Source: Eggerthella sp. YY7918
Lineage (GTDB): Bacteria > Actinomycetota > Coriobacteriia > Coriobacteriales > Eggerthellaceae
Length of the DNA stretch: 64,000 nucleotides
NCBI RefSeq assembly: GCF_000270285.1
Contig: NC_015738.1
Coordinates: forward strand, 744,001 to 808,000
Direction of reading: 5' to 3'
Positions within the stretch are counted from its first letter, which is position 1; every line of letters begins with the position of its first letter. Made by a program: the position numbers and the translations under genes. Shown piece after piece: positions 18,635-36,631 of this stretch. The notes beneath the pieces are model-generated. The model saw only the letters and a list, made by a program, of their open reading frames with translations, was not told the DNA's origin and made no database searches.

Positions 18635-19408
18635 TTGGAAGACTTTGCACCCGTGGCCGACGATGTAGTCGCAGAGGGTATTGCCGAAGAAGAGGTTTTC
18701 CCTCCTCGTCGAGTTCGACTTACGCGTGATGCCGTGATGGCAGAACGTTTGCATCCCGGAATTGAGGTACGCCCTCCGCTTACACGCATTCCGAGCAAGT
18801 ACTATGCTCATGCAAAGCGAGCAATGGATATCATATGCGCCTCGTTGGCGATCATTGTTCTTTTACCGCTTCTTCTTGCGTGTGCTGTTGCTGTTAAGGC
18901 TACGAGTCCGGGGCCAGTATTCTTTAGGCAGGAGCGTTGGGGTCGCAGCAAGTCGCATTTTCAATGTTGGAAGTTTCGTACGATGGTGGTAGAAACGCCT
19001 CCCAATTTACCTGCACAATCCTTCGGTGACAAAGCGCGCTACATGACGCCAGTCGGTGATTTTCTAAGACGGTGGTCGCTTGACGAGCTTCCGCAACTGC
19101 TCAATATCTTACGAGGCGATATGTCTGTAATTGGTCCGCGCCCTGTCATTATCCGAGAAAAGCGCCTGATCGATTTGCGCGAACCCCTCAACGCTAATGG
19201 CGTTCGCCCTGGTCTCACAGGATGGGCTCAAATTAACGGTCGCAATCTGGTCAACGACGAAGAAAAGGCCTTCCTCGACGGCGAGTACGTAGCCAATATG
19301 TCTCTCGCTTTCGATGCGCAAATATTTTTTAAAACCATTCTTGTAGTCCTTAGCCGCCGCGGTGTGGATAGGAAAGCGAAAAGAGACGACGACGAGGTGC
19401 CCTTTTAA
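18635..19408 (+). CDS. Initiating sugar-phosphate transferase (WcaJ/RfbP-type)
   Basis: A bacterial sugar transferase that places the first sugar phosphate on undecaprenyl phosphate at the inner membrane face. The conserved core is complete: AKRAMDIICASLAIIVLLPLL (membrane re-entrant helix), SPGPVFFRQERWGR, CWKFRTM, RRWSLDELPQLLNILRGDMS, VIGPRP and RPGLTGWAQINGR. The start is uncertain. TTG at 18635 is chosen for its GGGGGAG site 8 bases upstream; TTG at 18539 would overlap the previous gene by 56 bases, and ATG at 18737 would still contain the whole domain. The stop overlaps the next start (TAATG). The first sugar cannot be named from the sequence. Confidence 0.88.
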   Translation: MEDFAPVADDVVAEGIAEEEVFPPRRVRLTRDAVMAERLHPGIEVRPPLTRIPSKYYAHAKRAMDIICASLAIIVLLPLLLACAVAVKATSPGPVFFRQERWGRSKSHFQCWKFRTMVVETPPNLPAQSFGDKARYMTPVGDFLRRWSLDELPQLLNILRGDMSVIGPRPVIIREKRLIDLREPLNANGVRPGLTGWAQINGRNLVNDEEKAFLDGEYVANMSLAFDAQIFFKTILVVLSRRGVDRKAKRDDDEVPF

Positions 19409-20658
19409 TGCGCATTCTTGTTATTTGCGAGCATTACTATCCTTCCACTGATGCCTGCGCAAAAAGGATGACAACCCTTGTCGATTGCCTCCGTAAAAAG
19501 GGACATGATGTCTGTGTTCTAGCCTCGGAGACGAGCTTGGCGGAATCTCCGGATTATCGCAAGCCCGACTACGTGACCTTCTATTCGGCATACGCTATGA
19601 AGGAAAAGACAGTCATAAAGCGCTTTCTCAACAACTGGACGGAAATGCAAAACTCAAGCAAGGAAGCCCGACGTCTTGAAAAATTCGATGTTGTTATATG
19701 CACATCGCCGCCATTGATGTTGGTTTTGAGTGCAATGCGTGCAGCCAAAGCATCTGGTGCTGCCATTGTTTTTGATGTAAGAGATGTTTGGCCTGATGTT
19801 GCCTATGAAATGGGCAGTTTCACGAAAGACAGCATTTACGGAAAGATTTTTGCCCGTATCTCGAAGAAGGCGTACGATAGAGCTGACCTTATTACTACTG
19901 TAACACCTGGAAAAGTTAGCAAGATTAAATCGAAACTTTCGGATTCTGATGCGCGTAAAGTTGCGCTTGTCTCAAACGGACTGGATATTTCGTTTTTGGA
20001 GCAGGAAGAGCAAGCGGATCTTATCAGTAAGTACCGACTCGATGAGGATCCTCCCTGTGTCTATATTGGGAATATAGGGATGGCCCAGGGGCTTTCGTCT
20101 CTACTCACTATCGCCGAGAGAGTGGAGTCAAGTCGGTTCCTCCTATTTGGGAACGGAGCCGAAAAAGAAATTATTGCCACAGAGGTGGAGAAGCGAGGTC
20201 TGAGCAACGTTACAGTTTGTGGCAGGATCAGTCCTCAAGGTGCCTATACCATTCTTCGCCATGCTGCTTGCGCTTATGTACCCCTGAAAAACTCAAGTAT
20301 GAAAGACAGTATCCCTACAAAGCTCTACGAAGCTCTCGGATGCGGATGCCCCGTTCTTCTGGCTGCACAGGGCGACTCAGTTGATGTTCTTAGTGAGACA
20401 AAGTTGGGAGCAGTGGCTTCTCCGGAAAATAAAAAAGAGCTTTTCGATGCCTTCGAATGGGTAATTAAAAAAGAATGGACCTCGAAAGAGCGAGAAAAAG
20501 CCGCCTTGACGATCCAGAAAAAATATTCAAGGCAAGCTGCTGCCGAAACCTTCGAAGCCCTCCTAGTAGAGAGGTTCGAAGGTAGGTTCTTTGAGCTTAA
20601 GACCGAGGCTAGCCCTTGTTGCGTATATAGCAAGAATAGAATGGAGAGAGATGATTAA
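19408..20658 (+). CDS. Glycosyltransferase family 4 (WbuB-like)
   Basis: A 416-residue GT-B glycosyltransferase. The N-terminal half shows VICEHYYPSTDACAKRMTTL, a WbuB-like opening, then FDVRDVWPD. The C-terminal nucleotide-sugar domain has YIGNIGMAQGLSSLLTIAE, LFGNGAEKEII and PTKLYEALGCGCPVL, with the acidic/Gly motif of GT4 retaining enzymes. Related proteins transfer GlcNAc or acetamido sugars in O-antigen synthesis. It starts on the A of the preceding stop and overlaps wecC by 8 bases, so the genes are translationally coupled. The last ~30 residues look non-conserved. Donor and acceptor unknown. Confidence 0.88.
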   Translation: MRILVICEHYYPSTDACAKRMTTLVDCLRKKGHDVCVLASETSLAESPDYRKPDYVTFYSAYAMKEKTVIKRFLNNWTEMQNSSKEARRLEKFDVVICTSPPLMLVLSAMRAAKASGAAIVFDVRDVWPDVAYEMGSFTKDSIYGKIFARISKKAYDRADLITTVTPGKVSKIKSKLSDSDARKVALVSNGLDISFLEQEEQADLISKYRLDEDPPCVYIGNIGMAQGLSSLLTIAERVESSRFLLFGNGAEKEIIATEVEKRGLSNVTVCGRISPQGAYTILRHAACAYVPLKNSSMKDSIPTKLYEALGCGCPVLLAAQGDSVDVLSETKLGAVASPENKKELFDAFEWVIKKEWTSKEREKAALTIQKKYSRQAAAETFEALLVERFEGRFFELKTEASPCCVYSKNRMERDD

Positions 20659-21877
20659 TATAATAGGCCTAGGCTATATCGGTCTTCCTACAGCGCTCAT
20701 GTTTGCAAGTCACGGAGTAGATGTTGTTGGTACGGACTACAACAAAAACCTCGTAGCGACCCTTAACGCAGGCCACACTACTTTTAAAGAAGATGGAATC
20801 GATGAGCTTTTCGCTCAAGCAGTTGAGGCGGGAGTGAAGTTTTCGACTGAATACCAATCTTGTGGCACCTATATCATCTCCGTCCCAACTCCTTATGACA
20901 AAGCCTCGAAGAAAATCGATCCCTCTTATGTGGTTTCAGCTGTGGAAACTGTCTTGGATGTCGCTTCGAAAGAAGCGACCATTGTTATAGAGTCAACCGT
21001 ATCACCCGGTACTATAGATCGTTTTGTTCGTCCAGCCATTGAAAAACGTGGCCTGATTATTGGGGTCGATGTAAATCTGGTACATGCTCCCGAACGAATC
21101 ATTCCCGGCAACATGGTTCACGAGCTCACGAACAACAACCGCACGATCGGGGCGGACGACCCTCGGGTTGGCGAGCGGGTCAGGGAGCTGTACTCGTCCT
21201 TCTGCAAAGGGGAGATCGCGATCACCGACATCCGCACAGCGGAGATGACGAAGGTGGTCGAGAACACGTTTCGCGACATCAACATCGCTTTCGCGAACGA
21301 GCTCGCCAAGATATGCCGTTCGGACGGCATGGACGTCCATGAGATCATCCGTATCGCTAACAAGCATCCCCGCGTGAACATCCTGCAGCCCGGACCCGGG
21401 GTGGGGGGCCACTGCATCAGCGTCGACCCCTGGTTCCTCGTCGGGGACTACCCCGAGCTTGCGAGGCTTATTCGCAACGCGCGCGAGACAAACGACTCCA
21501 TGCCCGACTTCGTGCTTGAGAGGGCGAGTGAAATCATGGGGGCCAACGGCATAACAGACCCCTCCGAGGTCGGCATCTACGGCCTCACCTACAAGGAGGA
21601 TGTCGACGACGTGCGCGAATCGCCCACCCTGCAGATGATCGAGAGCATGGCCCGCCATCTGTCCGGCAGCGCCTGCAAGGTCTACGATCCGTGGGTCAAG
21701 GACGATATCGTGCCAAACCAGGTCCATTCCCTGGGCGAATTCCTCGAAGGCCTCCGCATGGTCATAGTTATGGTGGGCCATTCCGAGCTGAGGCAGAACC
21801 CGTCCCTGTTCGACGGGCTCGTCATCCTCGATACGCGCAATATCTGCGGCCAAGGGGATCTTGTCCATAAGCTATGA
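20651..21877 (+). CDS. wecC: UDP-N-acetyl-D-mannosamine dehydrogenase
   Basis: A 408-residue UDP-sugar dehydrogenase that oxidises UDP-ManNAc to UDP-ManNAcA with two NAD+. Visible are the Rossmann motif GLGYIGLPTALMFASHGVDV, ESTVSPGTID, the HAPERIIPGNMVHEL segment typical of WecC, and the catalytic Cys in GPGVGGHCISVDPWFLV. Immediately downstream is the epimerase that makes its substrate, supporting the assignment. Composition changes abruptly inside the gene near 21,110: the first third is AT-rich, the remainder very GC-rich (one 60-base line is about 70% GC), although the protein stays intact. ATG at 20651 has a GGAGAGAG site. Confidence 0.92.
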   Translation: MINIIGLGYIGLPTALMFASHGVDVVGTDYNKNLVATLNAGHTTFKEDGIDELFAQAVEAGVKFSTEYQSCGTYIISVPTPYDKASKKIDPSYVVSAVETVLDVASKEATIVIESTVSPGTIDRFVRPAIEKRGLIIGVDVNLVHAPERIIPGNMVHELTNNNRTIGADDPRVGERVRELYSSFCKGEIAITDIRTAEMTKVVENTFRDINIAFANELAKICRSDGMDVHEIIRIANKHPRVNILQPGPGVGGHCISVDPWFLVGDYPELARLIRNARETNDSMPDFVLERASEIMGANGITDPSEVGIYGLTYKEDVDDVRESPTLQMIESMARHLSGSACKVYDPWVKDDIVPNQVHSLGEFLEGLRMVIVMVGHSELRQNPSLFDGLVILDTRNICGQGDLVHKL

Positions 21878-23001
21878 GAGGGAACGCTACGCACTCCCAC
21901 AAGAAGAAGGTCATGCTTGTCTTCGGCACGCGTCCGGAGGCAATCAAGATGTGCCCCCTTGTCAACGAGCTCAAGGGCAGACCCGACGTATTCGAGACCG
22001 TCGTGTGTGTCACCGGGCAGCATCGCGAGATGCTCGACCAGGTGCTGCAGGCGTTCTCGGTCGTTCCCGACCACGACCTTGCCATCATGAAGCCCGGGCA
22101 GACTCTGTTCGATGTGACGTGCGACGTGCTCCTCGACATCAAGGCGGTGCTCGAAGAAGAGCGGCCCGAGGTGGTGCTCGTCCACGGGGATACGACGACC
22201 TCGTTCGCGGCGGCGCTCGCGTGCTTCTACCTGCACATACCCGTCGGGCACGTCGAGGCGGGGCTAAGGACCCGCAACATGCTGTCGCCCTGGCCTGAGG
22301 AGTTCAACCGCCAGGTGGTCGATATCCTGGCCGAGCACTACTTCGCCCCAACCGATCAGTCGAGGCGGAATCTGCTCGACGAGGGAAAGCCCGCCGAGAA
22401 GATACTCGTAACGGGGAATACCGGCATCGATGCGCTCCGGACAACGGTTCGCAGCGGCTACCGCAACAAGCACCTCGACTGGGCCGCAGGCTCTCGCCTC
22501 ATTCTCGTTACGGCCCATCGGCGCGAGAACTTGGGCGATCCCATGCACCGGATGTTCAGAGCCATACGGAGGGTGATGGAGGAGCACCCCGACGTCAAGG
22601 CCGTCTACCCGGTGCATATGAACCCCCAGGTACGGGACGCGGCCCATGCCGAGTTGGACGGGTTTGACCGGCTGCGTATCATTGAGCCGCTCGAGGTGGT
22701 AGACTTTCACAACTTCATGGCGGCAAGCCACCTCATCCTCACCGATTCGGGCGGCATACAAGAAGAGGCGCCCGCCCTTGGCAAGCCGGTGCTGGTCATG
22801 CGGGATACGACTGAGCGTCCCGAGGGGGTTGCGGCGGGAACGCTCAAGCTGGTAGGCACTGGCGAGAGTGCGATCTACGAGGCCTTTACTGAACTCCTAG
22901 ACAGCGAGGCTGCCTATGCGTCCATGTCGCGTGCGTCTAACCCGTACGGCGACGGGCATGCCAGCGAGCGCATCGCCGATGCCTTGGAAGGCGAGGTATA
23001 G
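21874..23001 (+). CDS. wecB: UDP-N-acetylglucosamine 2-epimerase (non-hydrolysing)
   Basis: A 375-residue epimerase converting UDP-GlcNAc to UDP-ManNAc. The family signature is clear: VFGTRPEAIKMCPLV, TGQHREMLDQ, VHGDTTTSFAAALA, VGHVEAGLRTRN, EFNRQVVD, VTAHRRENLG and LTDSGGIQEEAPALGKPVLV, including the Asp, Glu and His residues of the active site. It overlaps wecC by four bases, and together they supply UDP-ManNAcA. The whole gene belongs to the GC-rich cassette, so its codon use differs from the genes at about 19.4-21 kb and 24.3-30.6 kb. Confidence 0.95.
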   Translation: MRGNATHSHKKKVMLVFGTRPEAIKMCPLVNELKGRPDVFETVVCVTGQHREMLDQVLQAFSVVPDHDLAIMKPGQTLFDVTCDVLLDIKAVLEEERPEVVLVHGDTTTSFAAALACFYLHIPVGHVEAGLRTRNMLSPWPEEFNRQVVDILAEHYFAPTDQSRRNLLDEGKPAEKILVTGNTGIDALRTTVRSGYRNKHLDWAAGSRLILVTAHRRENLGDPMHRMFRAIRRVMEEHPDVKAVYPVHMNPQVRDAAHAELDGFDRLRIIEPLEVVDFHNFMAASHLILTDSGGIQEEAPALGKPVLVMRDTTERPEGVAAGTLKLVGTGESAIYEAFTELLDSEAAYASMSRASNPYGDGHASERIADALEGEV

Positions 23002-25191: not shown

Positions 25192-26355
25192 ATGAAATCA
25201 GTGCTACTTATTAATCATGCCCCAAATCCTCGCATGCAAAAACGAGCCAAGGTTTTGCATGAGTTAGGTGAAGTGCACCTTGTTTGCTTGAAGCGCGTTG
25301 ACATGGATATCTGGGATATTGATTCAATGTTTTATGACTCAAACACGGTCATCGAGGCTAGTGTTCCATCTTCGGAGGATGTTTTAAAAAGGTTGATTGC
25401 GACAGGGCCCTTTTTTAAAAAAGCTCTTCACGCTATCAGGACTATTTGCCCGGATATTATTTATACGGAGAATCTGGACTGCCTTTGCGTGGCGAGGTTA
25501 GCTAGAAATTGCTCCCGAAAACCCAAAATTCTTTATGAGGTTGCAGATATTCGCGAAGTACTACTTGTAAAAAATAGTCATTTAATAGGAAAGCTAAAAC
25601 AATCACTGATAAAGACGGTAGAGCGGAAAGTTATCTCTATCGTTGATTGCTTAGTGGTAACCTCGGAACGTTTCTATACAGACTATTATGAGTCGATTAT
25701 GCCTAATGTAAAAGTAATTTTTGCGCCAAACGCCCCTTCGTTACAGCAGTTCGAATCGTATAAGGAGGCGAAGCACAAGGATTTCGTTGTGGGTTATATT
25801 GGAGCGATCAAGTATTTAGATCAATTGAAACTGCTAATTGATTCCGCTGATAGTGCCGGTGTATCGGTAATGATTGCCGGAGCAGGAATTTCTGATAGTT
25901 CAACAGAAGAAATCGCTGAATACGCAAAGCATAAGAATGTCAAAGTTTTAGGAAAATATGATTACTCCAAAGACATAATCGAGCTCTATGAATCGGTAGA
26001 TTGCGTATATGCGGTATACGATGCCGATAATCCAAATGTAAGAATTGCTCTACCGAACAAGCTGTATGAAGCTATTCTTTGCAGCAAGCCCATCATTGTT
26101 GCTAGAGGAACATATCTTTCTGAACTTGTGGAAAAATGGGGTATTGGAGTTAGCGTCTCTCACTCTTCCGCTAATGAGTTGCGGGATGTTTTCATCGAAT
26201 TAAAAGCTGACTTTGAAGGTTCGCGAAAAAGACAGGATGATTTCAAAAGAGCCTGTATGGCTTTAAAAGAACAGGCAAGTTGGCTCGATTGGGAAGACGA
26301 TCTTATCAAATTTTGCCTTAGCACAACGAATGAGTCGTTCATTGAAAGCAATTGA
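25192..26355 (+). CDS. Glycosyltransferase family 4-like protein
   Basis: A 387-residue GT-B protein. The N-terminus is MKSVLLINHAPNPRMQKRAKVL; the second half contains VVGYIGAIKYLDQLKLLIDSA, MIAGAGISD and RIALPNKLYEAILCSKPIIV, the GT4-type donor-site Asn-Lys-(L)-YE motif. AGGTGAAATGCT precedes the ATG, 10 bases after the acetyltransferase stop. It is AT-rich like its neighbours to 30.6 kb. It overlaps the next gene by 26 bases. It adds one sugar of the repeat unit; which one is unknown. Confidence 0.82.
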   Translation: MKSVLLINHAPNPRMQKRAKVLHELGEVHLVCLKRVDMDIWDIDSMFYDSNTVIEASVPSSEDVLKRLIATGPFFKKALHAIRTICPDIIYTENLDCLCVARLARNCSRKPKILYEVADIREVLLVKNSHLIGKLKQSLIKTVERKVISIVDCLVVTSERFYTDYYESIMPNVKVIFAPNAPSLQQFESYKEAKHKDFVVGYIGAIKYLDQLKLLIDSADSAGVSVMIAGAGISDSSTEEIAEYAKHKNVKVLGKYDYSKDIIELYESVDCVYAVYDADNPNVRIALPNKLYEAILCSKPIIVARGTYLSELVEKWGIGVSVSHSSANELRDVFIELKADFEGSRKRQDDFKRACMALKEQASWLDWEDDLIKFCLSTTNESFIESN

Positions 26356-27961
26356 CACTATAGGATCGGATTCCTACTCGAAAGAGGGAAGCAACCCGAG
26401 ATTGCTAAAATCGGATAATCACCGTGAGCGAGTTTTTTATCAGCGAAATGAAAAAGAAATAGCTTACCAATCGCAAAATGCGAGTTCTTTTTTGAAGGTA
26501 TTCGGGAACTCTCCCCTGTATGCCCTAGTCGCTTTGGCTAACATAGTCGGCACTCAGTATCCTCAATTTGGACTTGCGATAGGCTGTTTGTCGGTTTTTG
26601 GAGTATTGCTCACGCTAGTGTTAAAAGGTCCCCAGCCTGCCTTTCTCTTGCTTCTCGTACTAGTGAGTTGTTCTTTCGAGTCGGAAGCTTATGTAATGGG
26701 AGTGTCCTCGTCAAATCTTCTTTTTGGATTTATGAATCTGCCCTATATAGGATCATTCGGCGCTGTAGTCCTTCTCCTCCTTTGCTATTTTGCGCTAATT
26801 TGGAACAACAAACCTCCAAAGACGTCATTAGCTTCTCATTCTTTGTTAAGAGCAGTGAACGCATGCCTTAATGTAATGATGGTAAGCGGTGTTATTTTCT
26901 TTGCCATTTCTTATCTGACAAACGACAATGATGTATCGCATCTTGATTGGTATTTGAGAACCATAATAGGAGAGACGTCAAAAGGTATATTTTGCGTATT
27001 TGTTTTAAAATTCGTGACAATTCAGTTGCTTATTGATCGATCATTTCCAAGCAAGCTCGCTCACCTTTTGACAGATACTCTAATTGCATTGTCATGGGTT
27101 GGCGTAGTCACATCTGCGCTGGACTGGCACGGCTATTATTATGACGACCGAACTGCAGTAGCGCTCTTGCCCCTAGCTCATATTTTCGCTTCAAGTCTAC
27201 TGATTGTTGGACTTTTTGAAAAGGGCGCAAGGCGAGCAGTATGCCTTGTGTCAGGTGGAATTTCGCTTATAACGTTGTTGGTGGTTTTCCCTTCACCATT
27301 GAGTGGGACATGGTCCACGATGCAGGTAGTGATGATTTTGGTAGTGCTTTTAGTTTTACTTAGTCCTCGTAGATTGATCGTCGCTTTATTGTCTATTGGA
27401 ATGGTCATTGTGTTGGCCCCCTCGGCTCTCGAGGTAATTAAAGTCGATCAGCTCGTTGTATACAAATTCGGCCAAGTCATCGAACTTGTGAAAGGCGTTT
27501 CTGCTGGATCGGATTCTTTTGATACGGCCCATAGCGCCTATACTCGTGTTGACGAATTTGCGAATGTTGCACTTGAGTACGCTGAAAAGCCTTGGTTCAT
27601 CGTTTTCGGCAAAGGTTTTGGAGGGTCGATCGCGCATCACACACTTTCCGAATGGAGTAATCAAGGCGACTTTTCCACAGATCAAGTTGCATCGGGATCT
27701 TTTGTGCGACTGCATACGACGCCTAGTTTAATTTTTCTTAAACACGGCCTCATCGGTTTAATGTTGTTCGTTGCTCTGTTTTCTTTCGCGGTGTTGCATA
27801 TAAGAAAAACGCCATGGTTGTTCATTGGCATATTTTGGTTTTCGTTCTACTACAGCTCATTTGCAACACTCGCATTAGTGGGAGGAACTGCCCTAATTTT
27901 GGGCATCTACAATGTAGAGAACAATAGTGTAGATCGAGCTACGATTAATCATGCCTTATAG
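26330..27961 (+). CDS. Wzy-like polysaccharide polymerase
   Basis: A 543-residue protein with about 12 membrane helices after an ~50-residue polar N-terminus, and a large extracytoplasmic loop around residues 380-450 (YTRVDEFANVALEYAEKPWF, VFGKGFGGSIAHHTLSEW, RLHTTPSLIFLKHGLIG). The G-x-G-F-G then H..P..I..KHG pattern resembles O-antigen ligase/polymerase (Wzy/WaaL) proteins, whose loop carries catalytic residues. Its place between glycosyltransferases and a flippase supports Wzy, joining repeat units outside the membrane. It overlaps both neighbours (26 and 11 bases). Sequence divergence is normal for this family. The start could be later than 26330, as the first ~50 residues are unremarkable. 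Confidence 0.8.
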   Translation: MSRSLKAIDTIGSDSYSKEGSNPRLLKSDNHRERVFYQRNEKEIAYQSQNASSFLKVFGNSPLYALVALANIVGTQYPQFGLAIGCLSVFGVLLTLVLKGPQPAFLLLLVLVSCSFESEAYVMGVSSSNLLFGFMNLPYIGSFGAVVLLLLCYFALIWNNKPPKTSLASHSLLRAVNACLNVMMVSGVIFFAISYLTNDNDVSHLDWYLRTIIGETSKGIFCVFVLKFVTIQLLIDRSFPSKLAHLLTDTLIALSWVGVVTSALDWHGYYYDDRTAVALLPLAHIFASSLLIVGLFEKGARRAVCLVSGGISLITLLVVFPSPLSGTWSTMQVVMILVVLLVLLSPRRLIVALLSIGMVIVLAPSALEVIKVDQLVVYKFGQVIELVKGVSAGSDSFDTAHSAYTRVDEFANVALEYAEKPWFIVFGKGFGGSIAHHTLSEWSNQGDFSTDQVASGSFVRLHTTPSLIFLKHGLIGLMLFVALFSFAVLHIRKTPWLFIGIFWFSFYYSSFATLALVGGTALILGIYNVENNSVDRATINHAL

Positions 27962-29117
27962 AATCATGCTGACAGATTTTTTGCTTCCAGCAGGTCATAT
28001 ACGCTTTAATACAAGGTTGGCCAACGCGTTGTCTCAAGTAGCAGATGTCCAGTTTGCTGCAAGCGAGCGCTATGTGGAATTGTTAATGGACACAAGAATC
28101 GAGCTTATCCCGAAACTAGACGATGTGATAAAACCTCGGGTCATAGAGGATAAACGACGCGTTTTCCAAAACATGCGACGAACTGCTCGGTTAATTGATA
28201 GGCGAAAGTGTGATGCCGTTATTGTGGCAGCAAGCGATCCTGTCCTTTTTATTGTCGCTCCCTATATTTTTCATTGCGGGAACCTTCCGATTTTTATGAT
28301 TCACCATCGAAGTATTGACGTTCTTATGCGTTCACGGATTGCTCGCAACTTATTTAAGATCTATATGAGTCGTATTTTCCATATCGTAGGTGAAAAATTC
28401 ATTGCCGATGCCCTCATCAACATCATCGGTGTGCCCCGCGATCACGTTTTCGTATGTCCTCATGCAATGGGTGTCGAAAAGGAGGGGAGCTTGCGGGATC
28501 GCTCGACAATGACAACATCGTTGTCAGGGTCCGATCCTTCTTCAAATTTATATGATGCGATTAGCTTAAGCGGCAATAGTGATCCGGATTTGGTTCGAGA
28601 TTTTATTTCCTACGAAAAGAAGACGAACACGTTGCGCAAAGCGGGATTTAAAGTTTACATAAAGGGTTCCCCGGCATTTGACAATGGACATCTTGTGGTA
28701 TCGCCAAACCGGCTTTCCGACCAAGAATATGACCACATGTTCACCAGTGCGCAAGTGTCGATTTCTCTTATGGGCTCGTATTTCCGCTTCCGTGTAAGCG
28801 GTTCCCTCCTTGATGCCGTTGAACACAACTGTAGAATCGTTGCATCAAAGTATCCGATGGCCATAGAGTTCTCCAAAACCTATCCTCATCTTGTCTCTTG
28901 CTTTGATGATGTACCTCAAGCCTTTAATCAAATTATACGAGCAGTATCAAGCAATTGCATGTCAGATGACATGGATTGCGATATGGAGCCTCAGATCTTC
29001 AATCAAGAAAAGTGGCATCAGGAAGCTAAGGCGATACAAGCATCTCACAGTCAGCAGACCTTAGCTGACTCGCTTGACGATGCTCTTGGAAGGGTTTTGT
29101 GCAAAGGATGCAAATGA
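27951..29117 (+). CDS. Glycosyltransferase-like protein of the polysaccharide locus
   Basis: A 388-residue protein of AT-rich composition. It opens MPYRIMLTDFLLPAGHIRFNTRLANAL and includes FMIHHRSIDVLMRSRIARNLF, VCPHAMGVEKEGS and VSGSLLDAVEHNCRIVASKYP, the last resembling the donor-binding segment of GT4 glycosyltransferases. Motifs are weak and I do not recognise a precise family. It overlaps the polymerase by 11 bases and the flippase by about 38. Location makes a glycosyltransferase the best guess. Confidence 0.65.
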   Translation: MPYRIMLTDFLLPAGHIRFNTRLANALSQVADVQFAASERYVELLMDTRIELIPKLDDVIKPRVIEDKRRVFQNMRRTARLIDRRKCDAVIVAASDPVLFIVAPYIFHCGNLPIFMIHHRSIDVLMRSRIARNLFKIYMSRIFHIVGEKFIADALINIIGVPRDHVFVCPHAMGVEKEGSLRDRSTMTTSLSGSDPSSNLYDAISLSGNSDPDLVRDFISYEKKTNTLRKAGFKVYIKGSPAFDNGHLVVSPNRLSDQEYDHMFTSAQVSISLMGSYFRFRVSGSLLDAVEHNCRIVASKYPMAIEFSKTYPHLVSCFDDVPQAFNQIIRAVSSNCMSDDMDCDMEPQIFNQEKWHQEAKAIQASHSQQTLADSLDDALGRVLCKGCK

Positions 29118-30582
29118 AACGCATCTGGTTCGATCTGAAAGAGACTTTTTGTCAATACTGACAAGCAAGCAAGATGTGATTTGGGGTTATGCAGGAACCT
29201 CTCTTTCTATGGGGGCAAATCTGTTGCTCCTTCCATTTCTTTTGTACTGTATTTCTTCCGATTATCTCGGACTCTGGTATGTGTTCGTAAGTATAGGTGC
29301 GCTGTCGGCCCTATTTGATTTCGGGTTCAATCCGGCAATTGCACGCAATGTTGCCTTTATATGGTCCGGTGCGAAAGAGCTTGAAAAAGAGGGTGTTCGG
29401 CTTTCGATCAAAGATTGCAATTGCTCGGTTGATTACGAACTGATGCAAAAGCTTTATAAAGCATGCAGGATTCTCTACATGGGTATCGCGATTACTGCAT
29501 TACTTTTGATCGGTGCTTTTGGAACGCTATACGTAAGTCATTTATCTTTAGGATTGGATCAAAGTATAGTGTTCTGCTCATGGGGAGTGTATTTAGCAGC
29601 TTTGTTTTTGAGCCTCTACTATGGGTATTATGCAACGTTGCTTCGCGGCGTAGGAGCTGTTGCTCGCTACAATCAGATATTGGTGCTTTCAAGATGTCTG
29701 CAACTCATCTTCACTATAGTTTTATTGTTTGCTGGGTTTGGGATCATAGCACCTGCTGTTGGATACCTTGTTTACGGCTTATTCGTTCGTCTTGCTTCTA
29801 AGATTGCCTTTAACAATTACAAAAACATCGGTGACAGGTTGCGCAAAGTCGAAAACCCGGCGAGTTTCCGGGATGCGATAAATCTTTTGAGGGTTATGTG
29901 GCACAATGCATGGCGAGATGGTTTAGTGGCTCTCTCAAACTACCTAGCTAGTCAGGCCACGGTAATAGTAGCTTCATTCTGGCTAACTCTCTCCGAAACA
30001 GGCACATACTCCGTGACTATTCAGCTGCTAACTGCACTGGCAACTATCGCATCTGTACCGTATTCTACTGCCCAGCCATCGTTATCTTCAGCCTATGTTG
30101 AAGGGCGTTCGCGCTACGTGCGCGAAACAGTATCAATGTGCATGATAGTATACGCGTTTACGTATATCATCGGTTTGGCGCTTTTGGAGCTGATTGGCGC
30201 TCCGATGCTTGCTTTAATAAAACCCGAAGCTTCGCTCAATGGGGCGGTTCTGCTTGTATTCGGTTCATACTATTTCTTTTACAAACGTCAACAGCTCTAT
30301 GCTTCGTGCATAGCGAATACAAACCATCTACCATATGTCGGTTCATATGTTATTTCTAGTGTTGCAGTAGTTGTTTTCAGCGCCTATTTTACAGGCGCAT
30401 GCCACCTGGGCGTCTGGGGGCTTGTTCTTGGGCAGGCCATACCTCAACTTACATACAATTGTTGGCATTGGCCTATCTGCGTGCATAGAGATATGGGATT
30501 ATCGAGCATCCGCGTTGCGCAGCTTGGAATCACGACCCTTCGGCAAAAGCTTATCCGATCCAAGAAAGATACCTCTACATGA
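29080..30582 (+). CDS. Wzx-type lipid-linked oligosaccharide flippase
   Basis: A 500-residue integral membrane protein with 12-14 helices, of the MOP/polysaccharide transport superfamily: WGYAGTSLSMGANLLLLPFLL, LYYGYYATLLRGVGAVARYN, NAWRDGLVALSNYLASQATV and VPYSTAQPSLSSAYVEGRSRYV match the Wzx pattern of helix breaks and polar residues. It should turn undecaprenyl-linked repeat units outward for the polymerase. The start is uncertain: TTG 29074, ATG 29080 and later codons all overlap the previous gene. A well-spaced AAAGGA site points to an ATG at 29114 that opens only a 15-codon out-of-frame peptide. The end overlaps the kinase start by four bases. Confidence 0.85.
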   Translation: MLLEGFCAKDANETHLVRSERDFLSILTSKQDVIWGYAGTSLSMGANLLLLPFLLYCISSDYLGLWYVFVSIGALSALFDFGFNPAIARNVAFIWSGAKELEKEGVRLSIKDCNCSVDYELMQKLYKACRILYMGIAITALLLIGAFGTLYVSHLSLGLDQSIVFCSWGVYLAALFLSLYYGYYATLLRGVGAVARYNQILVLSRCLQLIFTIVLLFAGFGIIAPAVGYLVYGLFVRLASKIAFNNYKNIGDRLRKVENPASFRDAINLLRVMWHNAWRDGLVALSNYLASQATVIVASFWLTLSETGTYSVTIQLLTALATIASVPYSTAQPSLSSAYVEGRSRYVRETVSMCMIVYAFTYIIGLALLELIGAPMLALIKPEASLNGAVLLVFGSYYFFYKRQQLYASCIANTNHLPYVGSYVISSVAVVVFSAYFTGACHLGVWGLVLGQAIPQLTYNCWHWPICVHRDMGLSSIRVAQLGITTLRQKLIRSKKDTST

Positions 30583-31574
30583 TTATCACCAAAACGCCGT
30601 TTCGCATGTCCTTCTTTGGTGGAGGGACGGATATGCCGGAGTTTTTCTCGGAAAACGGAGGAGCCGTTCTTTCGACGACGTTCGACAAGTACTGCTATGT
30701 GACCGTGAGGCACATACCGCAGTTTTTCGAATACTCGACGGAGGTGGTTTACTCGAAGATAGAGAGGGTTTCCAACGCTGACGAGCTCGAACATCCCTTG
30801 GTTCGTAATGCGATGCGATTCTGCGATATGCATGAGCTTCGCGTTGGCTACGATGCAGATCTACCAGCTCGCAGCGGCTTGGGCACTTCCAGCTCGTTTG
30901 CGGTCGGGCTGCTGAACGCCTTCCATTCACTTAAAGGCTCGTTCGCCTCGAAGAAGAAGCTTGCGGAAGAGGCGATTTTCCTTGAACGTGAGATGTGCGC
31001 GGAATCAGGCGGATGGCAGGACCAGATCGCCGCAGCGTACGGGGGTTTGAACAGGATATCGTTTCAAGGAGAATCGTTCGAGGTGAATCCCGTGATCGTT
31101 CGTCTTGAACGAAAGAAGATGCTCGAAGAGCGACTCCTGCTTTTCTTCACGGGGTTCACGCGCTTCTCAAGCGATGTCCAGCGAGAGCAGCGCTATTCCG
31201 AAAAGACCGCTCGGCTTCGCGCGATGCTCCAGCTCGTCGATGAAGCGGAACGGGTACTGACCGATAAAAGCGCATCGCTCGAAACCTTCGGCGAGCTTCT
31301 CGATGAGTCATGGAATCTCAAACGCGGTCTGGGAGCGAACATATCGACCGATCCTATCGACGATCTTTACCGGGCAGCGCTGCGGGCAGGCGCTACGGGG
31401 GGCAAGCTTCTCGGCGCCGGCGGAGGAGGCTTCTTGCTTTTCTATTGTGAGCCTGAGGTCCAGGCGAACGTGCGCGATGTCCTCGATTGCCTCATGGAAG
31501 TCCCTTTCGAGTTCGAAGACGAGGGTACGCGCGTCATCCACTATTCACCGGAGGAATATGAAACGACCTTATGA
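30579..31574 (+). CDS. hddA: D-glycero-alpha-D-manno-heptose-7-phosphate kinase (GHMP family)
   Basis: A 331-residue GHMP kinase: IITKTPFRMSFFGGGTDMPEFF (sugar-site opening typical of HddA), the ATP loop DLPARSGLGTSSSFAVGLLNAF near residues 94-115, and the C-terminal glycine motif GATGGKLLGAGGGGFLLF. HddA phosphorylates C1 of heptose-7-phosphate in GDP-heptose synthesis. The next gene encodes the three other enzymes of that route, which makes this assignment stronger than family alone (fucokinase or GlcNAc kinase otherwise). Its end overlaps the fusion gene by 17 bases. From here composition returns to moderate GC. Confidence 0.92.
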   Translation: MIITKTPFRMSFFGGGTDMPEFFSENGGAVLSTTFDKYCYVTVRHIPQFFEYSTEVVYSKIERVSNADELEHPLVRNAMRFCDMHELRVGYDADLPARSGLGTSSSFAVGLLNAFHSLKGSFASKKKLAEEAIFLEREMCAESGGWQDQIAAAYGGLNRISFQGESFEVNPVIVRLERKKMLEERLLLFFTGFTRFSSDVQREQRYSEKTARLRAMLQLVDEAERVLTDKSASLETFGELLDESWNLKRGLGANISTDPIDDLYRAALRAGATGGKLLGAGGGGFLLFYCEPEVQANVRDVLDCLMEVPFEFEDEGTRVIHYSPEEYETTL

Positions 31575-33381
31575 GATATTAGCGGAAGCGATTGATCGCT
31601 ATCCCAATCTGAAACCGTGTGCTCAAGCTATGGAAGAAGCGTTCGGGGTGTTGGCGAGGTCTTACCGAAGCGGAAGGAAAGTGCTGGTTTGTGGCAACGG
31701 CGGATCTGCATCCGATGCGGAGCATATCGTCGGCGAGCTGATGAAGAGCTTCAAAGAGGAGCGCAGTCTTCCCTCGAGCTTTTTTGACCAGTTTAGCGTC
31801 GTCAACCCGGGCGTCGATCCGCCGGGATGGCTGGAGGGCGCGTTGCCGACGATAAGTCTGGTTTCGCAAACATCGCTCATGACCGCTTTTTCTAACGACG
31901 AATCCGCCGCGGGAGTGTTCGCACAGCAGGTGTACGGATACGGTCGACCCGGAGATACGCTGATCGCCATCTCCACGTCGGGTACTTCTCCGAATTGCGT
32001 GCATGCCGCGCGCGTTGCGCGGACATTGGGGATGAAGGTCGTAGTGCTCACTGGAAGCGCCCCATCTCCGCTTTCCGAGATTTCCGACGTTGCCATCATG
32101 GTCCCCGAAACGGAAACCTACCGCATCCAAGAACTCCATTTGCCCGTCTACCATGCGCTTTGTGCTGCATTGGAGGCGGAATTTTTCTGCGAATCGCTCC
32201 GAGCTTGCTTTCCTGTCAGAGAAGCTGTCGTCCTTGTTGGAGGAAGGGGAACTCGTCTCCGAAGCGTCGTTTCCGACGTTCCGAAGCCGATGGCGCCCGT
32301 GAACGGAAAGCCCTTTCTACATTATGTGCTTGAAAAGCTGTGCATGATGGGTTTGGAACGCATCGTGCTGGCAATAGGATATAAAGGGAACTGCATAAAA
32401 GAATACTTCGGCAGCAGCTTCCAAGGAATGGAGATCGTCTACAGCCAGGAAGCTGAGCCCCTTGGAACGGGAGGCGCTATCAAAAAGGCTCTCCAAAACG
32501 TTCACAACGAATGGGCATATGTGCTCAACGGCGATACGTACCAAGATATCGATGCTGAAAAATTCGCCTCCTATGCTTCATACGCGCAAGTAAAAGCCGT
32601 TTTGGGTACGCGAGTTGTTCAAGATTGCTCTCGCTACGGCACGATAGATGTCTCCAAAGACGGCAGAATAGAGGCGTTTCGCGAGAAAATGCCCGTCAAA
32701 AATGGGCGAATTAGCAGCGGTGTGTACCTCATGAGAAAAGACGCTCTATTTGGAATGCCCTCGGTGTTTTCTTTGGAGTCCAACTGGCTCGAGCCGTTGG
32801 CCCCGAGCGGTGTGCTCGGCGCCGTTGACCTGGTGGGTTCTTTTATCGATATTGGTATACCCAAAGACTACGAGCAGGCTCAAAGCGTTCTTCCGGCATG
32901 CTCAAAAAGACCAAAATTGGCATTCTTCGATCGCGACGGAACCATCAACGTCGACACAGGACATCTCTTCCAGCCGGAAGAGCTCGAGCTCATCCCCGAA
33001 ACAGTGGATCTGATGCGCTCCTACAACCGACGAGGCGATTGGCGGGTCGTGGTCGTCACCAATCAGGCGGGCATCGCCAAAGGACTGTACGATGAACCAC
33101 AGATGCATCGGCTGCATGCCGCCCTCGATAAATTGTTGGCGGCAAAGGGCGCCTCTGTGGATGCGTATTATTTCTGCCCTCATCATCCAGATTATACGGG
33201 GCCGTGCGAGTGCCGCAAGCCGGCGGCTGGTCTTTTGCAGAAAGCCTTGCACGAATTCGGGGCTATTCCTTCTGAATGCATGATGTATGGCGATAAGGAT
33301 ACGGATCGGCTTGCAGCTGAAGCCGCAGGTGTGCCGTTCGTTTGGATTCAAGATGTGCTAGAGAAAGAGGCATTGCAATGA
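31558..33381 (+). CDS. Trifunctional GmhA-HddC-GmhB fusion for GDP-heptose synthesis
   Basis: One 607-residue reading frame carries three enzymes normally encoded separately. Residues ~1-215: sedoheptulose-7-phosphate isomerase (GmhA, SIS fold) with CGNGGSASDAEH at 45-56 and AISTSGTSPN at 137-146. Residues ~220-440: nucleotidyltransferase (HddC type) with GGRGTRLR at 228-235, VPKPMAPVNGKPFLHYVL and VLNGDTYQDID. Residues ~452-605: HAD bisphosphatase (GmhB) with FFDRDGTIN (D458, D460), VVVTNQAGIAKG, the zinc-loop Cys/His segment CPHHPDYTGPCECRKP and MYGDKDTD. With HddA these steps convert sedoheptulose-7-phosphate to GDP-D-glycero-alpha-D-manno-heptose. The ATG at 31558 follows GGAGG by 3-5 bases. 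No internal stop or ribosome site separates the domains. Confidence 0.93.
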   Translation: MKRPYEILAEAIDRYPNLKPCAQAMEEAFGVLARSYRSGRKVLVCGNGGSASDAEHIVGELMKSFKEERSLPSSFFDQFSVVNPGVDPPGWLEGALPTISLVSQTSLMTAFSNDESAAGVFAQQVYGYGRPGDTLIAISTSGTSPNCVHAARVARTLGMKVVVLTGSAPSPLSEISDVAIMVPETETYRIQELHLPVYHALCAALEAEFFCESLRACFPVREAVVLVGGRGTRLRSVVSDVPKPMAPVNGKPFLHYVLEKLCMMGLERIVLAIGYKGNCIKEYFGSSFQGMEIVYSQEAEPLGTGGAIKKALQNVHNEWAYVLNGDTYQDIDAEKFASYASYAQVKAVLGTRVVQDCSRYGTIDVSKDGRIEAFREKMPVKNGRISSGVYLMRKDALFGMPSVFSLESNWLEPLAPSGVLGAVDLVGSFIDIGIPKDYEQAQSVLPACSKRPKLAFFDRDGTINVDTGHLFQPEELELIPETVDLMRSYNRRGDWRVVVVTNQAGIAKGLYDEPQMHRLHAALDKLLAAKGASVDAYYFCPHHPDYTGPCECRKPAAGLLQKALHEFGAIPSECMMYGDKDTDRLAAEAAGVPFVWIQDVLEKEALQ

Positions 33382-34412
33382 AAAAAGCGCTTATTACGGG
33401 AGTCACCGGCATGGTCGGAAGCCATCTGGCTGACTATCTGCTTGAAAACACCGACTGGGATATTTACGGTGTCTGCCGTTGGCGCAGCCCTCTCGACAAC
33501 GTCGAGCAGCTCCTGTCTCGTGCCAACGCGCACGATCGGGTGTTTTTCGAGTATGCCGACCTAAATGACTCAGTGTCGCTGATGAGGGTGGTAGACGAGG
33601 TGATGCCCGACTACGTATTCCATCTGGCGGCCCAAAGCTACCCGCTTACGAGCTTCACGGCCCCTCTCGACACACTTGAGACGAACGTCAACGGTACGGC
33701 TCGGCTGTTGGAAGCGCTGCGCGCTGCCATCTCCCGCACAAAAGGATATGAGCCCGTGATCCATGTGTGCGCATCTTCGGAAGTGTTCGGCAAAATACCT
33801 GCCGATGCGAAACCTGAAGAGGGAATACATGAGGATTGCCCCTTCCACCCGGCGTCTCCCTATGCGATATCCAAGGTGGGTACGGATCTGCTTGGCCGCT
33901 ATTACGCCGAAGCCTACGGCATGACGGTGATGACCACGCGCATGTTCACTCATACCGGTCCGCGCCGCGGTGATGTGTTTCATGAATCGACTTTTGCCAA
34001 GCAGATCGCTATGGCAGAAGCAGGGCTTATCGAACCTAAGGTCATGGTAGGGAACTTGGACTCGCTGCGCACCTATGCTGACGTTCGCGATGCCGTGCGC
34101 GCTTATTACATGCTGGTCACGAAGGATCCCGTGCCGGGCGAGTACTACAACATCGGTGGTTCGTATACGTGCAAAGTAGGTGACACCTTGCGCACGCTCA
34201 TTTCTTTCTCGCCGCTCGCCGACGAACTCAAGGTCGAGATCGACCCTGCACGGTTGCGCCCCATTGACGCCGATCTCCAAGTGCCCGATTGCCGGAAGTT
34301 TAAAGCCCATGCTGGATGGGAGCCGGAGATTCCTTTCGAGAAAACCATGCACGACTTGCTTGATTACTGGCGAGATCGCGTCGCAGCAGGGCAGCAATTT
34401 CTCACCAGGTAA
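33378..34412 (+). CDS. GDP-sugar 4,6-dehydratase, probably acting on GDP-heptose
   Basis: A 344-residue extended short-chain dehydrogenase. ITGVTGMVGSHLADYLL binds NAD(P), CASSEVFG and YAISKVGTD hold the catalytic Ser/Thr, Tyr and Lys, and TRMFTHTGPRRGDVF matches GDP-mannose 4,6-dehydratases (GMD). Since it overlaps the GDP-heptose fusion gene by four bases and no GDP-mannose supply gene is present, the likely substrate is GDP-heptose, as for WcbK/DmhA-type enzymes. The product would be GDP-4-keto-6-deoxyheptose. Start at 33378; an in-frame ATG 36 bases earlier lies inside the previous gene. Confidence 0.88.
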   Translation: MKKALITGVTGMVGSHLADYLLENTDWDIYGVCRWRSPLDNVEQLLSRANAHDRVFFEYADLNDSVSLMRVVDEVMPDYVFHLAAQSYPLTSFTAPLDTLETNVNGTARLLEALRAAISRTKGYEPVIHVCASSEVFGKIPADAKPEEGIHEDCPFHPASPYAISKVGTDLLGRYYAEAYGMTVMTTRMFTHTGPRRGDVFHESTFAKQIAMAEAGLIEPKVMVGNLDSLRTYADVRDAVRAYYMLVTKDPVPGEYYNIGGSYTCKVGDTLRTLISFSPLADELKVEIDPARLRPIDADLQVPDCRKFKAHAGWEPEIPFEKTMHDLLDYWRDRVAAGQQFLTR

Positions 34413-34461
34413 AACCATTAATGAATATGTATCGCACGGCAGAGTAGAAGGAAGGTAACAG

Positions 34462-35640
34462 ATGCTGGACATCCCATTGATGCAGGACAATATAGTCGAA
34501 GAAGACAAGCGCGCTTTGATCGACTTTTTAGAGCAAACCGATCGATTTACTCAAGGTCCGCAGGTGCGGGCATTCGAAAGAGAGTGGTCCGAGTGGCTCG
34601 GTTGCAGGCACAGCGTGTTTGTGAACTCAGGCGCTTCTGCAAACCTGATCACGATGATGGCGCTAGCCGAGACATTGGGAAAAGGCGAAATCATCGTGCC
34701 TGCTATCACGTGGTCGAGCGATATATCCAGCGTTCTGCTGGCGGGACATACCCCCGTTTTCGTCGACATCGATTTCAAGAATCTCGCCATGGATGAAAAC
34801 GAGGTTCTCAATGCAATCAGCGAGCGGACGAAAGCGGTGTTTTTGACGCATGTCTTAGGCTTCAACGGCTTAACGGAAAACCTTGAGCTTGAGCTCAGAA
34901 AACGCGGCGTCGTGCTTATAGAGGATGCGTGCGAGTCCCATGGAACGCGTTTCGCGCGGGATGGCCGCGATGCAAAGGTCGGCTCGGTTGGCTTCGCGTC
35001 CAATTTCTCCTTTTACTATGCCCATCATATGAGCACAGTTGAAGGCGGCATGGTGTGCACAGATGATGGCGAGTTTTACCAGCTCGTTTGCATGTTGAGA
35101 AGCCATGGGATGCTTCGAGAGAACCCTGATCCGGCGGTGCGGGAGCTTGAAAGTGCACGTTGGCCTGACTTGAATCCGGAATTCACATTCATGATGCCGG
35201 GATTCAATGTTCGAAGCAGTGAGATGAACGCCGTCATCGGGAGAAAACAGCTGCCGAGGCTGGACAATGCGATCCGACAAAGGCGCGAGAATTGCGAGCT
35301 GTTCGTCGAAAACCTGCGAAGCGATCGCTACTTCACGGACTTCGACTTGAGAGGCCAGAGTAACTATGCGCTGGTGACTCTGTTGCGCGAGGCAGATTCC
35401 GAGCTGTTCGCTCGCGTGTGTGAAAAGCTGCGTAGCGAGAACGTTGAGTTCAGACGAGGCACAGCGGGCGGTGGGAACATGACCAGGCAGCCGTTTGTTC
35501 GCAGAGCTCTACCCGATGTCTGTCCAGAGAGCTTTCCTCATGCAGATCACGTGCACTCCTTCGGACTGTATACGGGGAACTATCCAGGTTTGGAAAAGGG
35601 GAAGATCGAACGACTCTGCACTCTGCTGAACACATTGTAG
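34462..35640 (+). CDS. PLP-dependent sugar 3-dehydratase-like enzyme (ColD/RfbH-like, His in place of Lys)
   Basis: A 392-residue DegT/DnrJ/EryC1-fold protein. PLP-site features are present: NSGASANLITMMAL, EDACESHG (D155) and SFYYAHHMSTVEGG. In ordinary aminotransferases of this fold the position occupied here by H188 is the Schiff-base Lys (SFxxxKxxxxGEGG). A His there is the mark of the C3-dehydratases ColD (colitose) and RfbH (3,6-dideoxyhexoses), which remove the C3 hydroxyl of a 4-keto-6-deoxy sugar. Predicted reaction: GDP-4-keto-6-deoxyheptose to GDP-4-keto-3,6-dideoxyheptose. It lies after the dehydratase and before the reductase, in reaction order. AGGAAGG precedes the ATG. The His is read directly; substrate is inferred. 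Confidence 0.85.
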   Translation: MLDIPLMQDNIVEEDKRALIDFLEQTDRFTQGPQVRAFEREWSEWLGCRHSVFVNSGASANLITMMALAETLGKGEIIVPAITWSSDISSVLLAGHTPVFVDIDFKNLAMDENEVLNAISERTKAVFLTHVLGFNGLTENLELELRKRGVVLIEDACESHGTRFARDGRDAKVGSVGFASNFSFYYAHHMSTVEGGMVCTDDGEFYQLVCMLRSHGMLRENPDPAVRELESARWPDLNPEFTFMMPGFNVRSSEMNAVIGRKQLPRLDNAIRQRRENCELFVENLRSDRYFTDFDLRGQSNYALVTLLREADSELFARVCEKLRSENVEFRRGTAGGGNMTRQPFVRRALPDVCPESFPHADHVHSFGLYTGNYPGLEKGKIERLCTLLNTL

Positions 35641-35707
35641 AGCGTCGAGAGTCATGCCTTTTTCGATGTAGGCTGCCATATTTAGACGTATGAAGCGAAG
35701 GTCGGTA

Positions 35708-36631
35708 ATGGATCTGAATTCAAAGATTTATATCGCTGGAAGGGGCATGGTTGGATCCGCCCTAGTTCGCAAGCTCCAAGATGCCGGTTATCGAAGCATC
35801 GTTGCGCCAACCTCGAAGGAGCTCGATTTGAGGAACCAGAGCGAGGTGATGCGCTTTTTTCGGCAGGAACAACCCGATTACGTGTTTCTGACAGCGGCCA
35901 AAGTGGGAAGCGTACAGGCGAATATCGAGTCCCCGCTCGATTTCCTGTACGACAATGCGATGATTATACTGAACGTGATGCATGCTGCTTTGACATCAGC
36001 TATGCATCGTTTGATGCTTATCGCTTCGACGGCTGTGTATCCGAGAGATGCCGTACAGCCTGTCTCCGAAGCATCTCTTTTAACAGGTGCGTTCGAGCCA
36101 TCAAACGAGGCTTATGCTTTGGCCAAGACCATGGGGATTAAATTTTGCCAATATGCGGCGCAGCAGGATCCGGGCAGATTCGTAGCGGTGACGCCGTCGA
36201 ATATCTACGGACCTGGAGACAGGTACGACGAAAAAACCGCCCACGTCGTTCCTGCAATGGTCAAAAGATTCCATGAGGCAAAGCTCTCGGGTGCGAACGC
36301 CGTGACTGTATGGGGTTCAGGAAAGCAGGTGCGCGAGTTCCTTTACGTGGACGATGTCGCAGAAGCTTGCCTGCTACTTATGGGTACGCATAAGGGAGGC
36401 GGGCCGGTAAACATCGGTCCGGGTACGCCTACAACGATAATGCAGCTTGCCGACGCTATTGCCCGCGTAGTTGGGTTTGCTGGCAATATTCTATATGACG
36501 TGTCGAAACCTGAAGGAGCTCCCAGCCGCACTTCCGACGTTTCTATTCTGAATTCCTATGATTGGAAGCCCGCAGTTTCCCTTGAAGAAGGGCTCAATCT
36601 GACATATCTCGATTTTCTGAAAAGAGCGTAA
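35708..36631 (+). CDS. GDP-fucose-synthase-like 4-ketoreductase lacking epimerase residues
   Basis: A 307-residue short-chain dehydrogenase close to GDP-L-fucose synthase/ColC: GRGMVGSALV, FLTAAKVGSVQANIESPLDF, YALAKTMGIKFC (catalytic Tyr and Lys) and VWGSGKQVREFLYVDDVAEA. In E. coli Fcl, Cys109 (SSCIYP) and His179 (YGPHD) perform the C3/C5 epimerisation; here the matching segments are STAVYP and YGPGD, so both residues are missing while the reductase triad remains. This suggests C4 reduction without epimerisation, the last step to a GDP-3,6-dideoxyheptose. Start at ATG 35708 with AAGG upstream; ATG 35690 has no site. It is the last gene of the locus. Confidence 0.85.
   Translation: MDLNSKIYIAGRGMVGSALVRKLQDAGYRSIVAPTSKELDLRNQSEVMRFFRQEQPDYVFLTAAKVGSVQANIESPLDFLYDNAMIILNVMHAALTSAMHRLMLIASTAVYPRDAVQPVSEASLLTGAFEPSNEAYALAKTMGIKFCQYAAQQDPGRFVAVTPSNIYGPGDRYDEKTAHVVPAMVKRFHEAKLSGANAVTVWGSGKQVREFLYVDDVAEACLLLMGTHKGGGPVNIGPGTPTTIMQLADAIARVVGFAGNILYDVSKPEGAPSRTSDVSILNSYDWKPAVSLEEGLNLTYLDFLKRA

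Follow-up and report, generated by a model that had tools for sequence, protein, structure and literature searches.

A five-gene cassette predicted to make GDP-3,6-dideoxyheptose in a surface polysaccharide locus of Eggerthella sp. YY7918

A pathway to GDP-3,6-dideoxyheptose has been published for Campylobacter jejuni HS:5 and HS:11 (PMC10440746). A separate C5-epimerase is present in C. jejuni HS:5, HS:11 and HS:45, and L-series products were shown for HS:5 and HS:11; HS:60 has a 3-dehydratase with neither epimerase nor reductase (PMC10680097). The D-arabino and D-lyxo compounds, described as previously unknown, were made in vitro by mixing C. jejuni enzymes (PMC10440746; PMC10680097). Here we analysed a 64,000-nucleotide stretch of the Eggerthella sp. 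YY7918 genome (contig NC_015738.1, positions 744,001 to 808,000 of the forward strand; hereafter ‘the window’, within which its features are numbered), where open reading frame (ORF) calls place five consecutive intact genes at 30579–36631 on the + strand, at the end of a Wzx/Wzy-type polysaccharide locus. We consider it probable that this cassette makes GDP-3,6-dideoxyheptose, most plausibly in the D-arabino or D-lyxo form, for a Wzx/Wzy-type surface polysaccharide.

Homology, placement and context give the predicted route good support: the identity of the genes, their catalytic residues, the placement of the dehydratase and of the pyridoxal/pyridoxamine phosphate (PLP/PMP)-dependent protein, and a conserved gene neighbourhood were all observed. 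Family assignments of all five products hold far beyond chance, and the catalytic motifs searched for are present. In the route that we infer, with its reactions, their order, their stereochemistry and the use of its product, GmhA would turn sedoheptulose 7-phosphate into heptose 7-phosphate, HddA would phosphorylate the heptose at C1, GmhB would take off the 7-phosphate and the HddC guanylyltransferase would follow. The dehydratase would then form a 6-deoxy-4-keto sugar, the PMP enzyme would take off the C3 hydroxyl and the reductase would act on the C4 keto group. The resulting GDP-3,6-dideoxy-alpha-D-arabino- or D-lyxo-heptose would supply the dideoxyheptose that goes into the cell-surface polysaccharide.

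A first-pass annotation of this DNA had described five linked genes with overlaps or short gaps and had assigned each to a family; ORF coordinates bear out the former, and profile matches, PDB matches and motifs the latter. Overlaps amount to 4 bases between the flippase gene and hddA, 14 between hddA and the fusion gene that follows it, and 4 between the fusion and dehydratase genes, and gaps of 49 bases each separate the dehydratase gene from the PLP gene and the PLP gene from the reductase gene. Since the genes overlap or stand 49 bases apart, the layout fits a single transcript. Consensus scans for promoters (6 sites versus a mean of 5.4) and terminators (8 versus 7.8) gave about as many sites as shuffled sequence. 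The fusion most likely starts at 31561 rather than 31303, because the longer listed ORF from 31303 starts inside hddA. The same annotation had equated gene order with reaction order. With reaction order taken as GmhA, HddA, GmhB, HddC, dehydratase, PLP enzyme and reductase, this is true of the last three steps and not of the precursor steps.

Homology and motifs predict four GDP-heptose precursor activities from just two genes. The first product matches NCBIfam HddA best (133 bits, under the cut-off of 600), and its solved relatives are 4usm (136 bits, named a putative sugar kinase and which we take to be WcbL), 3k85 (124 bits) and 4n3o (116 bits), the last two named heptose kinases. The second combines a GmhA isomerase (aa 1–210), an HddC guanylyltransferase (aa 216–445) and a GmhB phosphatase (aa 449–606); its HddC domain has its best PDB match (136 bits) in 5xhw, named ‘6-deoxy-D-mannoheptose pathway protein’, versus 92 against the best chain named mannose-1-phosphate guanyltransferase. 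This triple fusion was seen only in the window among the loci checked, and HddC-GmhB fusions occur in 18 other fetched loci. No transketolase match was found within the window; two adjacent partial matches at 2.117 Mb of the same genome, which we read as one split enzyme, are a possible source of sedoheptulose 7-phosphate.

The dehydratase, too, is closest to heptose enzymes. Its best PDB match is 7us5, a GDP-D-glycero-D-manno-heptose 4,6-dehydratase (365 bits), followed at a distance by an RMD (176 bits) and the best chain named GDP-mannose dehydratase (GMD; 147 bits), and on the GMD model TIGR01472 it scores 169 bits against a cut-off of 415. A tree of 95 rows, which omits the partial dehydratase of locus L030, places the window protein in one group (support 100/99) with 7us5, the dehydratase of a genome from the same family (G027) and those of 21 of the 22 dehydratase-bearing loci described below; the E. 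coli and Arabidopsis GMDs fall in a separate group of 11 rows (100/100). The G027 protein is the sister of the window protein (99/98), within a set otherwise made up of dehydratase loci (100/99). At 62 diagnostic positions, those at which 7us5 departs from a residue common to the GMD rows (at least 9 of 11 with a letter), the window protein matches 7us5 at 31, the GMDs at 11 and neither at 20.

According to the first-pass annotation, its proposal would fall if the dehydratase grouped with true GMDs and the genome supplied GDP-mannose. The clade shared with 7us5 lies outside the GMDs, and a profile search of the Eggerthella genome gave no match to GDP-mannose pyrophosphorylase/phosphomannose isomerase (GMP/PMI) and three GMD-family matches, none over the cut-off, the best being the window dehydratase gene itself (163 bits). 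A guanylyltransferase search found seven places in that genome, namely the HddC domain (best), RmlA, RfbF, GlmU and three weak ones that were not examined. As a control, a colitose-type locus from another genome (G354) scored 215 bits (GMP/PMI) and 522 bits (GMD) on the same models. We predict that the enzyme is of the GDP-heptose 4,6-dehydratase type.

The PLP protein is also set apart from its hexose counterparts. ColD is its best PDB match (176 bits), with 30% identity over 377 columns, and on the RfbH model NF011936 it scores 180 bits against a cut-off of 423. As the first-pass annotation had said, it carries His in place of the aminotransferase Lys: alignment puts a His at the ColD position altered in chains 3b8x, 2r0t and 3gr9, which we take to be His188. 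All 87 aligned rows (80 loci, ColD, the window protein three times and the G354 protein three times) share this His, a count biased by a search pattern that spanned the motif. An aminotransferase role is ruled out, there being no Lys at that place. The 3-dehydratases of C. jejuni are 62–67% identical to ColD (PMC10440746), so the window protein, at 30%, falls in another subfamily. In the PLP tree ColD and the G354 protein split off together (100/100), and the window protein joins seven Bacillota rows, six of them titled Lachnospiraceae (96/86, a bootstrap not fully settled). We predict that it belongs to a separate, heptose-linked subfamily of PMP 3-dehydratases.

The neighbourhood of this subfamily was examined in 80 loci, chosen as the best among 268 that six short patterns from the window PLP protein had retrieved; one of these patterns spanned the His motif. 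Counting HddA at 180 bits or more and the dehydratase at 290 bits or more, HddA is present in 65 of 80 loci and the dehydratase in 22, of which 21 also have HddA. These 22 loci are nearly all from Bacillota. Absences should be read as soft, as many contigs end within loci, and ORF labels miss genes hidden by longer reverse frames (18 loci with a dehydratase by label versus 22 by tblastn).

The reductase is the weakest link of the route. It is GFS-like (GDP-fucose synthetase-like) by overall sequence, at 351 bits on the NCBIfam GFS model (cut-off 500), and its PDB matches are 8du0/7ll6 (299 bits), 1bsv (258 bits; which we take to be E. coli GFS), C. jejuni DdahC 7anh (243 bits) and MlghC 7anc (183 bits). 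Ser107, Tyr136 and Lys140 are kept. The first-pass annotation had called it an Fcl/ColC-like reductase without epimerase residues, which is right for Cys109, replaced by Ala, and wrong for His179, which remains. Among 53 distinct reductase rows the Cys is found in 48, Phe in four and Ala in the window alone, and the His in 46. Reduction without epimerisation is known from C. jejuni DdahC (Thr/His) and MlghC (Tyr/Arg; PMC7949155), and the window enzyme resembles DdahC in joining the Ser-Tyr-Lys triad to a pair other than Cys/His. The only PF00908 (RmlC-type) epimerase of the genome lies at 1014195, outside the locus. As the reductase has lost the epimerase Cys and the locus encodes no other epimerase, the configuration at C5 probably stays unchanged. 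The same pathway might instead run with a reductase that retains C5 inversion, and the product would then be L-series, like those of C. jejuni HS:5/HS:11. We regard this as unlikely, though with a real minority chance: His179 is retained, GFS is a closer relative of the protein than DdahC is, and epimerisation does occur in one group of C. jejuni reductases (PMC10680097), against which stand the Ala at position 109, the non-epimerising Thr/His pair of DdahC and an epimerase encoded elsewhere than in the locus.

Related short-chain dehydrogenases/reductases (SDRs), 36–37% identical, are encoded in L026 (7050–8003), L027 (7017–8003) and the G027 locus L106 (12375–13301, RmlD-like by Pfam); they may serve as C4-reductase where a GFS-like match was not found. 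Of the cassette members, the reductase seems to be the one that varies.

Several observations weigh against a GDP-3,6-dideoxyheptose product. None of the five cassette proteins reached an NCBIfam equivalog cut-off. The PLP protein differs in kind from the C. jejuni enzymes that have been tested, a hexose enzyme is its best solved match, and 58 of its 80 examined relatives are without a window-type dehydratase, most of those carrying a thiamine pyrophosphate (TPP) enzyme or radical SAM gene instead; the substrate of the PLP enzyme could differ, since those genes accompany most relatives without the dehydratase. DdahC is not the nearest solved relative of the reductase, whose glycine loop (35726–35761) is one residue shorter than in the other 52 rows, leaving GxGxxG, and which stands on a long branch without a settled place in the reductase tree. 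In vitro, C. jejuni DdahA accepts GDP-mannose too, though as a poorer substrate (PMC7949155). Finally, a dehydratase on an Azospirillum plasmid (L150), 68% identical, is labelled a GDP-mannose dehydratase, and the 17 kb fetched contain no HddA match. Another on an Ensifer plasmid (L151; the two are 68–69% identical to that of the window) has a weak HddA match (29%) and a GmhB match. Transketolase-like genes lie near the Azospirillum dehydratase.

An end product that is either a 6-deoxyheptose without C3 removal or a 4-keto sugar, through an inactive PLP enzyme or an inactive odd reductase, appears improbable. The glycine-loop deletion and long branch would agree with it, as would the G027 locus, which has a heptose set and no PLP match on the fetched stretch; the PLP gene is nevertheless open and keeps its His188, and the Ser-Tyr-Lys triad of the reductase is intact.

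We give very little credence to extension or branching of the 3-deoxy-4-keto-heptose by a TPP enzyme. By label, a two-subunit TPP enzyme occurs in 44 and a radical SAM gene in 45 of the 80 PLP loci, and L028 and L035 combine the dehydratase with transketolase-like genes. Among the 22 dehydratase loci, however, these labels drop to 3 and 1, and the window has no transketolase match of its own, the pair at 2.117 Mb being 27–46% identical to the subunits of three compared loci.

The TPP-type loci are worth recording in their own right. In L043, L045, L047, L053, L054, L084, L091, L099 and others, from several phyla, a PLP 3-dehydratase and HddA accompany a two-subunit TPP enzyme (transketolase-like or E1-like), often with a radical SAM gene (with a B12 domain in L039) and an SDR. 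Such loci possibly make a branched or chain-extended 3-deoxyheptose of a novel kind.

A colitose-type hexose route in disguise, running from GDP-mannose through GMD, ColD and ColC, is likewise very improbable. Its three late enzymes are related to GMD, ColD and GFS, hexose enzymes are the best solved matches of the PLP protein and the reductase, and DdahA accepts GDP-mannose in vitro (PMC7949155). Yet the dehydratase lies outside the GMD clade, the genome has no GMP/PMI match, the ColC-type Cys is absent, and the colitose-type locus of G354 looks different: its GMD passes the cut-off, its GFS has the Cys, its PLP protein shares 53% identity with ColD, and a 1025-aa product includes a GMP/PMI part. 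The cassette is also unlikely to feed a CDP-hexose route, as the CDP-hexose locus of this genome has its own RfbH. G027, G354 and that RfbH locus serve as contrasts that make a colitose or CDP-hexose set unlikely in the window.

Two of these contrasting loci were noted further. The G354 set (L107, 7038–13386) has the same gene order as the window, and its 1025-aa protein joins a mutase part to the GMP/PMI part. A second glycan locus of the Eggerthella genome (G000:C1, ~ 1786900–1793900; L141) encodes RfbH (693 bits, above its cut-off), RfbF, a nucleotide-sugar dehydrogenase and a PseF-PseG-like fusion (under its cut-offs), and is predicted to be a CDP-dideoxyhexose-type route with a Pse-like gene.

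Close relatives of the PLP protein are rare in the genomes sampled: one among 396 in the phylum sample (threshold 1e-70; the Eggerthella genome itself) and two among 396 in the class sample (threshold 1e-60), where the second is G354, 36% identical and nearer to ColD. The dehydratase was found in 2 of 396 class-sample genomes at 1e-80 (its own and G027) and in 51 of 396 of the phylum sample at 1e-70, its own included; the others are 44–53% identical, many with a stop inside the match. Eight of these phylum-sample stretches were fetched. HddA, HddC, GmhA and GmhB lie near the dehydratase in L133 and ~ 8 kb away in L139; L134, L136, L138 and L140 have an HddC-like match and none to HddA; L135 has HddC, GmhA and GmhB and no HddA; and L137 has HddC-like, weak reductase-like and PLP-like (25%) matches, again with no HddA. 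The L133 genes (G467, 2155–9648, with a 51% identical dehydratase, same phylum) are likely a 6-deoxyheptose set, and such gene content makes it probable that other members of the sampled phylum have GDP-heptose routes.

Horizontal exchange is the simplest reading of the distribution, because the dehydratase nests among mostly Bacillota loci and the PLP protein sits with Bacillota. The fuller proposition, a natural D-series GDP-3,6-dideoxyheptose pathway with a distinct heptose-linked PMP 3-dehydratase family, exchanged between Bacillota and the Eggerthella lineage, is one we advance tentatively, as possible rather than probable. The first-pass annotation had thought a dideoxyheptose in an actinobacterial glycan new and modified heptoses mainly Gram-negative; this is tempered by the published C. 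jejuni route (PMC10440746) and by similar cassettes in 22 of 80 PLP loci, nearly all from Bacillota, so that the window does not stand alone among Gram-positive-type cases. A literature search (by titles and abstract starts, among the open-licence papers listed) found no paper on 3,6-dideoxyheptose outside Campylobacter, which does not establish absence. 6-Deoxyheptoses were reportedly described long ago in antigens of the Gram-positive Eubacterium saburreum, for which a literature search found nothing.

The genes upstream of the cassette (Table 1), with LCP, chain-length, kinase, phosphatase, transferase and Wzx members, make up what we take to be a typical Gram-positive-type capsule locus. 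The dehydrogenase-like and 2-epimerase pair is predicted to provide the second sugar of the glycan. The putative Wzy-type polymerase and the glycosyltransferase gene after it gave no family match. The LoaP antiterminator, above its cut-off, lies inside the locus at 18070–18594, as does a heparinase II/III-like protein at 23004–24647. After the operon, at 37125–38799 on the - strand, translations read by eye show an apparent small RelE/RelB-type pair and a Fic-family protein.

Table 1 Features of the polysaccharide locus and predicted dideoxyheptose cassette (positions in the window)
Feature	Position	Strand	Basis
LCP transferase, chain-length protein, tyrosine kinase, Cps4B-like phosphatase, LoaP antiterminator	14419..18594	+	LCP domain, tyrosine kinase and LoaP above cut-off; others below
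Initiating polyprenyl sugar phosphotransferase	18587..19408	+	Bac_transf, 199 bits
Glycosyltransferase	19408..20658	+	Glycos_transf_1
UDP-ManNAc dehydrogenase-like and UDP-GlcNAc 2-epimerase genes	20648..23001	+	Nucleotide sugar dehydrogenase, 430 bits (cut-off 190); WecB, 501 bits (cut-off 210)
Glycosyltransferase	25192..26355	+	Glycos_transf_1
Probable Wzy-type polymerase	26330..27961	+	Position and hydrophobic translation; no family match
Probable glycosyltransferase	27951..29117	+	Position; no family match
Wzx-like flippase	29074..30582	+	NCBIfam WZX_like, 394 bits (cut-off 300)
HddA kinase	30579..31574	+	NCBIfam HddA best match; GHMP motifs present
GmhA-HddC-GmhB fusion, 606 aa	31561..33381	+	Domain matches; catalytic motifs present
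GDP-heptose-type 4,6-dehydratase	33378..34412	+	Best PDB match 7us5; clade with 7us5
PLP/PMP-dependent sugar 3-dehydratase, His188 replacing aminotransferase Lys	34462..35640	+	ColD best PDB match
GFS-like C4-reductase	35690..36631	+	Ser-Tyr-Lys kept; Cys109 to Ala; glycine loop one residue short

In gut bacteria, the sugars on the cell surface are important for recognition by the immune system and for the binding of phages. If the proposed route is correct, dideoxyheptoses would be found beyond a few capsules of Campylobacter, in bacteria whose capsule locus is of the Gram-positive type; genomic context would mark out a large, uncharacterised family of sugar 3-dehydratases, and a directly testable enzyme set would be at hand for sugars so far known from the test tube.

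Compared with described and newly found systems, the colitose pathway (GMD, ColD, ColC) shares related reaction types on a GDP-4-keto sugar but differs in its six-carbon substrate, its true GMD and its retained Cys/His epimerase pair. The G027 locus has HddA, GmhA, HddC-GmhB and the sister dehydratase (81% identical), with an RmlD-like SDR replacing the GFS-like reductase. The 22 dehydratase-bearing loci (L021–L038, L040, L041, L059 and L072) have PLP proteins 53–64% and dehydratases 70–82% identical to those of the window. An HddC-GmhB fusion is found in 11 of them and the triple fusion in none; they differ in having GFS-like proteins with Cys, or with Phe and Asn, and L026 and L027 have the G027-like SDR instead. 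With C. jejuni HS:5/HS:11 the window shares GDP-heptose supply, a 4,6-dehydratase of the same clade, a PLP 3-dehydratase, a C4-reductase and a capsule locus (C. jejuni enzymes were compared by sequence through PDB chains 7us5, 7anh and 7anc; HS:5/HS:11 sequences were not searched). C. jejuni HS:5 and HS:11 have a separate C5-epimerase, a 3-dehydratase of the ColD-like kind and gmhB outside the cluster, whereas the window has no epimerase in the locus, a more distant 3-dehydratase and GmhA, HddC and GmhB in one protein. The window route thus appears largely homologous to the C. jejuni pathway and would work like it, differing in the subfamily of its 3-dehydratase, the fusion and the missing epimerase.

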